NCBI GenBank assembly: GCA_017471265.1
Contig: JAFUUW010000027.1
Span: 1 to 33,783, forward strand
Reading direction: 5' to 3'
DNA from: Alphaproteobacteria bacterium
GTDB taxonomy: Bacteria; Pseudomonadota; Alphaproteobacteria; RUG11792
DNA length: 33,783 nucleotides
Part shown: piece by piece, positions 24,511-24,676 of the stretch
How the letters are laid out: each line of letters begins with the position of its first letter
Position numbering within the stretch: the first letter of the stretch is position 1
Made by a program: the position numbers and the translations under genes
The notes under the pieces: generated by a model
The model's database searches: none
Told to the model about the DNA's origin: nothing
The model's input: the letters and a program-made list of their open reading frames with translations, nothing else

Positions 24511-24676
24511 AATTATTTTTCCAAAAGGCGGGACGCATTGTACTGATTTGCCTTTCCGCTAAGCCGTCAAGCCACGCTGCGCCTACGGCTTGCTTTTCGG
24601 GCTGTGCCCTTCAGGCTTGGCTGCCGCTTGGCAAATCAGGACTTTTTCTTCGCCCCTTTTGGAAAAAACAATAATT
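24511..24676 (+). repeat. Palindromic MITE-like repeat, copy C (full length)
   Basis: 166 bp, starting AATTATTTTTCCAAAAGGCG and ending CCTTTTGGAAAAAACAATAATT. CTGATTTGCC (24543-24552) and GGCAAATCAG (24630-24639) are perfect inverted partners, and the core between them is itself mostly self-complementary. It is GC-rich in an AT-rich surrounding. Confidence 0.85.

Follow-up and report, generated by a model that had tools for sequence, protein, structure and literature searches.

The palindrome at positions 24511 to 24676 raises the question of what kind of repeat it is and how it came to lie where it does. The window, i.e. the whole stretch of 33,783 nucleotides that was analysed, is a complete contig (C114) of an assembly of 1,098,567 bases in 115 contigs. 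Its repeat is one of about 70 palindromes of a single family, hereafter A, in this 1.10-Mb assembly. Full-length copies measure about 165-168 bp, and at about 165 bp each the family amounts to roughly 1% of the assembly. All five copies listed in a sequence-only reading of the window are present according to a profile search, and are given here with a doubtful fragment and a shared tail:

24511..24676, plus strand: full-length A palindrome, the copy that heads the sequence-only reading (profile match, fold)
15079..15246, minus strand: full-length A palindrome between ruvX and rnj (profile match, fold)
33624..33783, plus strand: A palindrome truncated by the contig end (profile and structure-model match)
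1..58, plus strand: right part of an A palindrome, truncated by the contig start (40.5 bits, model positions 111-167)
23846..23924, minus strand: half copy of A, right half only (47.3 bits, model positions 93-166)
24319..24377, minus strand: doubtful decayed A fragment (20.6 bits; L001 1309-1367)
24677..24708, plus strand: right tail shared with another copy, L020 (88% over 32 bp)

The hairpin-forming self-complementarity noticed at first sight is borne out by two comparisons. The copy at 24511 folds at -65 kcal/mol, as against -45.7 (sd 4.0) for shuffled sequences (z -4.88; 0 of 200 as low), and the copy at 15079 gives z -3.41 (1 of 200). A search of the genome for the exact palindrome CTGATTTGCC-N62..92-GGCAAATCAG gives 41 occurrences, its backward control none. 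Thus, the family stands far above chance, and a chance origin is excluded by the folds and by the palindrome count. The predicted further copies in the genome exist: structure model R2 finds 71 matches, and nhmmer on fetched stretches of the genome gives 77 distinct rows, of which 60 are full length, one interrupted copy is counted twice and six fall below 42 bits. The sequence-only model R1 yields 119 rows, many being the same palindrome echoed on the other strand, and blastn scored 40 rows of 80 candidates. All model counts are rough, and copies split over two contig ends may be counted twice. Rfam at gathering score returned only tRNAs for the window and 16 loci and no match for A, by which a known RNA family was rejected.

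Both ends of C114 fall within A copies; over the whole assembly this is true of no fewer than 8 out of 230 contig ends (about 2-3 are expected from coverage). Family A accounts for part of the assembly fragmentation in these organisms. An assembly break at a repeat had been proposed because positions 1 and 33733 share 21 bases; the position of the contig ends agrees with the break, but the 21 bases are a stretch present in many A copies and therefore say little on their own.

The consensus of A reads TTATTTTTTCCAAAAGGCGGG-ACGCATTGTACTGATTTGCC-variable-GCCGTCAAGCC-two small hairpins-GGCTTGACTGC-CGCTCGGCAAATCAG-TTTTTCTTCGCCCCTTTTGGAAAAAACAATAA. Pairwise identity of the 60 full copies averages 84.6% (range 69.8-96.2), the closest pair (96.2%) being the copies that end contigs C114 and C104. 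Since 48 alignment columns are invariant, the variation is concentrated rather than evenly distributed. Arm variants are found in several combinations, as expected from exchange between copies, and in 8 copies the small hairpin GGGC/GCCC has become GGAC/GTCC, both sides jointly. A is short, non-coding and bounded by terminal inverted repeats, as MITEs are; it is also an intergenic, multi-copy inverted doublet that folds into a hairpin, as REPINs are.

No reading frame is kept open within A. The best frame is free of stops in 23 of the 60 copies, the longest stop-to-stop frame across a whole copy has at most 153 aa, and two longer frames (290 and 262 aa) begin or finish inside a copy. Judged with a simple codon-usage gene caller, the copies lie mostly in long non-coding stretches, in keeping with their first description as intergenic and non-coding, and none of the 60 is inserted in frame in a protein gene. 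These observations bear on the Rickettsia palindromic elements (RPEs), of which A might be a member. RPEs are palindromes of about 150 bp, so that size and fold agree, and they probably belong to the same bacterial class. The best match of rpoC is a beta/beta' fusion model (1833 bits versus 1739 for the general model), which we take to be of the Wolbachia type; together with the small genomes of its sisters, this points to a probable reduced alphaproteobacterium. However, RPEs have been described within R. conorii genes (PMC10969869), whereas no A copy lies in frame within a gene, and RPE-like reading frames are ruled out by stops and frame lengths across the 60 copies. The likeness, which had been drawn from the window, stands for size and fold, the features compared; that A belongs to the RPEs is extremely improbable.

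A is also spread across genera, which is not visible without the relatives. In blastn, none of 39 other genomes matched, and profile R1 matched 7 of 35 genomes of the bacterial family, the own genome included. Model R2, which drew on 18 sequences from four genera, matched 14 of the 35 in 10 of 20 genera, six of these ten being absent from the model. Matches number 71 in the own genome (G000), 78 in G001, 40 in G018 and 30 in G017 (three other genera), 7 in G008, 5 in G046, 4 in G040, 3 in G012, 2 each in G002, G003, G048 and G049, and 1 each in G009 and G019, with rough E-values and with second matches that may be strand echoes. The copies are homologous across genera: the core ATTATA-(C/A/G) ... 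TGTCAA ... TTGACA recurs in fetched copies of G001, G017, G040, G008, G012, G046 and G009, while the copies of G003 have AGTATACC instead. The copies of G001, G017 and G018 examined are a minority, taken from among the matches listed. R2 found no match in 21 of the 35 family genomes; one of them, G021, has no match to R2 or R3 and yet carries a truncated A copy at the end of contig C25. R3, in which poor alignment of the outer stems left just 9 pairs, had no match in 16 genomes from other families within the class and, inside the family, matched the same six of 18 genomes as R2. Judging by this distribution, A appears to predate the genera of its bacterial family and to persist at low copy in some.

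Further afield, the exact pattern occurs in 30 stretches of genome_contigs and 2 of viral_contigs, two collections that may leave out the window's own genome, at chance level by profile score; a stricter cross-genus pattern gave no match in viral_contigs. The window copy has no match among phages and plasmids, and of the relatives' copies L205 has none among plasmids and L214 none among phages. One 30-bp hairpin match of L214 in a Yersinia plasmid was taken as chance. No description of family A was recognised in the open-access literature among the top matches listed. A related, shorter type of element that has ATTATACC and TGTCAAGG...CCTTGACA in common with A occurs at L215 1507-1584, L217 895-963 and L218 1365-1440, where a different outer palindrome surrounds the -10-like hexamer. 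At L192 (G018, contig C16) the right inner half of A is swapped for about 45 unrelated bases with the ends intact.

The hairpin pairs of A covary between genera. In alignment A3 (18 sequences) standard pairs make up 95.3% in a 25-pair structure, against 88.0 in shuffled alignments (0 of 500). Both sides have changed in 10 pairs against 4.7 (0 of 500), the covariation score is 0.250 against 0.119 (0 of 500), and further pair types number 21 against 17.5 (12 of 500). Sliding the structure by 1-3 columns lowers the covariation score to 0.038-0.082, a comparison that favours the unslid structure because it was derived from the same alignment. The own genome alone offers thinner support, with double changes in 2 of 41 pairs (26 copies). 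A switch of template from one arm of a palindrome to the other gives the same effect as compensation, and compensatory changes thus need not imply selection.

A is probably a non-autonomous MITE- or REPIN-like repeat, one long hairpin that was spread between genes by an enzyme encoded elsewhere. The imperfect palindrome of 130-175 bp would form the hairpin, and the enzyme would copy it to new intergenic sites by transposition. Older than the genera of its family, A would have stayed at low copy in some of them and been amplified separately in at least four (g1, g2, g18, g19). The hairpin in the form of single-stranded DNA may be the transposition substrate, as suggested by the lack of a target duplication, by compensating changes that keep the hairpin and by abundant Y1 relics. 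In its own genome A seems no longer to move, given that the closest pair, two copies at contig ends, reaches 96%; the copies in this genome may now exchange sequence by gene conversion.

A different explanation is suggested by the best-kept parts of A, an unpaired ATTRTA in one arm and TCAA/TTG in the stem. On the minus strand these conserved parts read TANAAT and TTGAC, and in the copy at 24511 they correspond to two promoter-like hexamers, both recognised by conservation and fold:

24537..24542, minus strand: -10-like hexamer, ATTGTA on the plus strand and TACAAT on the minus strand
24565..24570, minus strand: -35-like hexamer TTGACG, within the stem and 22 bp away from the -10-like one

When each genome is given one vote (22 sequences from 10 genomes and 7 genera), 20 of the 128 well-filled columns show full conservation. 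Among these, five make up ATT.TA, unpaired in the consensus structure, and others belong to TCAA and TTG.C in the stem. The hexamer at 24537..24542 is likewise unpaired in the consensus structure, and four of its six bases are unpaired in the single-copy fold. Of 111 copies, 106 carry TTGA(C/T)N and TANNAT, separated by 14-24 bp, on the minus strand, and 4 carry such a pair on the plus strand. It is possible that these hexamers are used as a promoter. A could then be a selected structure with a function as promoter, terminator or binding site, copied by duplication rather than transposition. The strand preference of the hexamer pair would fit such a structure, as would the invariance of five of the six bases of the -10-like hexamer despite their being unpaired; a purely selfish hairpin would have no need of a conserved unpaired hexamer. 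However, transcription from a promoter in A would run leftwards, where the neighbours are not biased in direction (21 on the plus and 19 on the minus strand here, 24 and 19 in relatives). The bias lies with the right neighbours, of which more are read away from A (27 here, 21 in relatives) than towards it (12 and 13), which might count in favour of function. The spacing of the hexamers is 17-18 bp in genus g3 and mostly 20-21 elsewhere (17-22 overall), which is long for a usual sigma70 promoter, whose optimum is 17. The copies of G003 deviate from the hexamer (AGTATA), and A is undetected by R2 in 21 of 35 family genomes, although the truncated copy in G021 shows that a copy can be missed.

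Genus g3 also bears on a kept function. In four of its five species A is retained at one orthologous place (L169, L170, L171 and L174, flanks 68-88% identical), one of the four copies being without its right half. Adjoining the copy is a gene for a phage head-tail connector (PF05135, E 4e-12); in three of the four species the minus-strand hexamers face this gene from 176-230 bp away, and in the fourth (L174) a called frame overlaps A. Retention at one locus in four species is also compatible with a kept function. The sequence-only reading had held that conservation at the same loci in relatives would speak against mobility, and for this one genus the observation comes near that case. At L169 and L171 the phage head-tail connector and regulator genes are kept in several species; these phage genes are possibly a domesticated prophage or a gene-transfer-agent cluster.

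Copying by duplication also has to be reconciled with the flanks. Within 60 bp of the edge, right flanks are similar in groups (83 blastn pairs), while left flanks form only 2 pairs; a laxer tblastx comparison over 900 bp with IS200-like parts masked finds 82 right pairs against 30 left. Since left flanks are hardly related, the copies are not plain segmental duplicates. On this balance, a selected structure spread by duplication is quite unlikely.

The hexamers could also be accommodated within a mobile hairpin. Such an element might carry its own single-strand promoter, at which RNA polymerase of the host would prime second-strand synthesis of a transposition intermediate. Once the strand is single, the duplex stem would contain TTGAC and a melted bubble TANAAT, a layout known from the single-strand promoter Frpo of the F plasmid. 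An unpaired hexamer would then be kept in one arm while the stems drift by compensating changes, and the spacing need not be canonical. This remains a speculative proposal with little probability.

The right tails add a second layer to the history of A. One group of tails, 100-150 bp long, adjoins about 13 of 64 copies, and some tails occur without an adjoining A. Among 15 pairs picked by hand, ten have tails that are 86-95% alike; in nine of the ten the A copies are 77.8-90.7% identical, and the one pair at 94.6% has a 32-bp tail (background 84.6%, sd 3.7). A identity near background beside similar tails indicates that A and tail have largely separate histories, which may reflect either conversion of A copies by one another or separate insertions beside a repeated neighbour. 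A single mobile unit of A plus tail is only a possibility, given this decoupling and the tails that stand alone. An interpretation of the tails as 3' ends of genes was dropped because gene calling disagreed. One tail, 'alpha', is itself a second repeat of 100-150 bp with CTCCAGG/CCTGGAG and CAGGG/CCCTG hairpins; it adjoins A at L126 1351-1500, forms about 12 other right tails, and has copies apart from A at L138, L115, L134, L146, L088 and L106.

The ends of A bear on the mode of movement. Both flanks of each of 58 copies were compared, at many offsets, with those of mismatched copy pairs, and no direct repeat of at least 5 bp exceeds chance; the target-site duplications that had been sought are thus absent at this length. 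A 4-bp direct match, AATT, occurs in 32 of 58 copies against 23.5 expected, as the best of many offsets. The same bases match more strongly as inverted repeats (5-mers in 24 of 58, with 12.3 expected), and copies of a second end class have TTGTTA...TAACAA, so that the outermost bases co-vary as part of the palindrome. The AATT excess is confounded by this palindromy and gives no evidence of duplication; with a palindromic target, however, a duplicated stretch of 2-4 bp would be hidden. These data weigh against, but also in part for, the idea that A is a DDE-type MITE, an internal-deletion derivative of a cut-and-paste IS (e.g. IS630-like, with a TA target) whose parent was lost. Its terminal inverted repeats, with TTA before TTTTTTCCAAAAGG ... 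CCTTTTGGAAAAAACAA and TAA after, conform to this type, the TA at both ends could be a 2-bp duplication, and the AATT match could be counted in its favour. However, the better fit of those bases as inverted repeats, the class II ends and the lack of longer direct repeats argue otherwise, neither DDE_3 nor, by that search, an IS630 parent was found in the genome, and the conserved asymmetry and covarying inner stems exceed what a DDE end needs. A DDE origin is therefore regarded as unlikely.

For the hairpin reading, the missing piece is the mobiliser. A transposase with matching ends had been proposed as a check, and the search of the genome found only two solitary ends, each beside an A copy. 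The genome has 101 matches to Y1 transposases (PF01797, IS200-like), all partial or with stops; every match spanning at least 110 of the 121 model positions contains stops, and none of three inspected is a full intact protein. TnpB is absent from the genome search. Decayed IS200-like relics lie in the window at 13941-14900, 24913-25228 and 30397-30980; their ends are by eye unlike those of A, and thus they at best hint of past Y1 activity.

Besides the unrelated left flanks, signs of movement come from the relatives. Median core identity is 98.5% in G018 (17 copies, of which 13 end within 5 bp of a contig end) and 97.9% in G046 (5 copies), whereas it is 88.9% in G001 (13 copies); A thus looks recently active in some genera. 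G046 was compared with its congener G021, of which 60 contigs (540 kb) were fetched. Four G046 copies have an orthologous flank there, and one is common to both genomes (L230, the end of C25). Sites L226, L228 and L229, the last adjoining what is presumably an RNase P RNA gene, correspond to sequence without A in the contigs fetched, where the fifth copy, L222, has no orthologous flank. The far flanks of the three A-less sites do not join, so that they represent breakpoints rather than clean empty sites and rearrangement is possible. The comparison of orthologous loci accordingly yielded three sites without A in non-colinear sequence. Differences between congeners and bursts of near-identical copies thus favour movement by another element, as had been suspected, while the absence of a matching-end transposase and of a target duplication of at least 5 bp speaks against it. 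At L228 and L230 a piece of 141-143 bp lies between a small hairpin and A; the G021 site orthologous to L230 (L255) has hairpin and A without it, which reflects another small insertion or a deletion.

Several known systems resemble A. BOX-like modular repeats, a tentative parallel, adjoin other modules as A does (tails on its right in this genome, hairpins on its left in G018 and G046), but the modules adjoining A vary between genera. REPIN/REP sequences are intergenic hairpin inverted repeats with many copies, no cargo and persistent populations, moved by RAYT (Y1) transposases (PMC3116915, PMC8049555); matches to Y1-type enzymes also occur in the genome of A. However, A is longer (130-175 bp), and many degraded IS200-like relics were found instead of an intact single-copy RAYT. 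The GTAG tag, a feature of many REPs, was not seen by eye. Correia-type MITEs are likewise short, non-coding, intergenic inverted-repeat elements with internal sigma70-like hexamers (PMC10969869); A differs in that no parent IS and no target-site duplication were found and in that it spans 10 genera.

With A, a single hairpin family has lasted across genera. Bacteria with small genomes are expected to lose such repeats, against which this persistence stands. Copy numbers from none seen to about 80 over 35 genomes provide a natural series on the persistence of palindromes and their movers, to which the single g3 locus in four species and the near-identical copies elsewhere add.

The window contains further peculiarities. 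The gene for ribosomal protein L1 (rplA, 2925-3663) is interrupted by an in-frame TAG, the codon that ends nusG, rnj, potH and kdsB in the same window, and rpoB (4783-8960) is split into two frames near position 8000; together, the split and the interruption suggest assembly errors rather than real loss. A tandem repeat with a period of 84 nt (28187-28858) lies in an ORF of 1143 aa (26972-30403) with weak coiled-coil-type matches.
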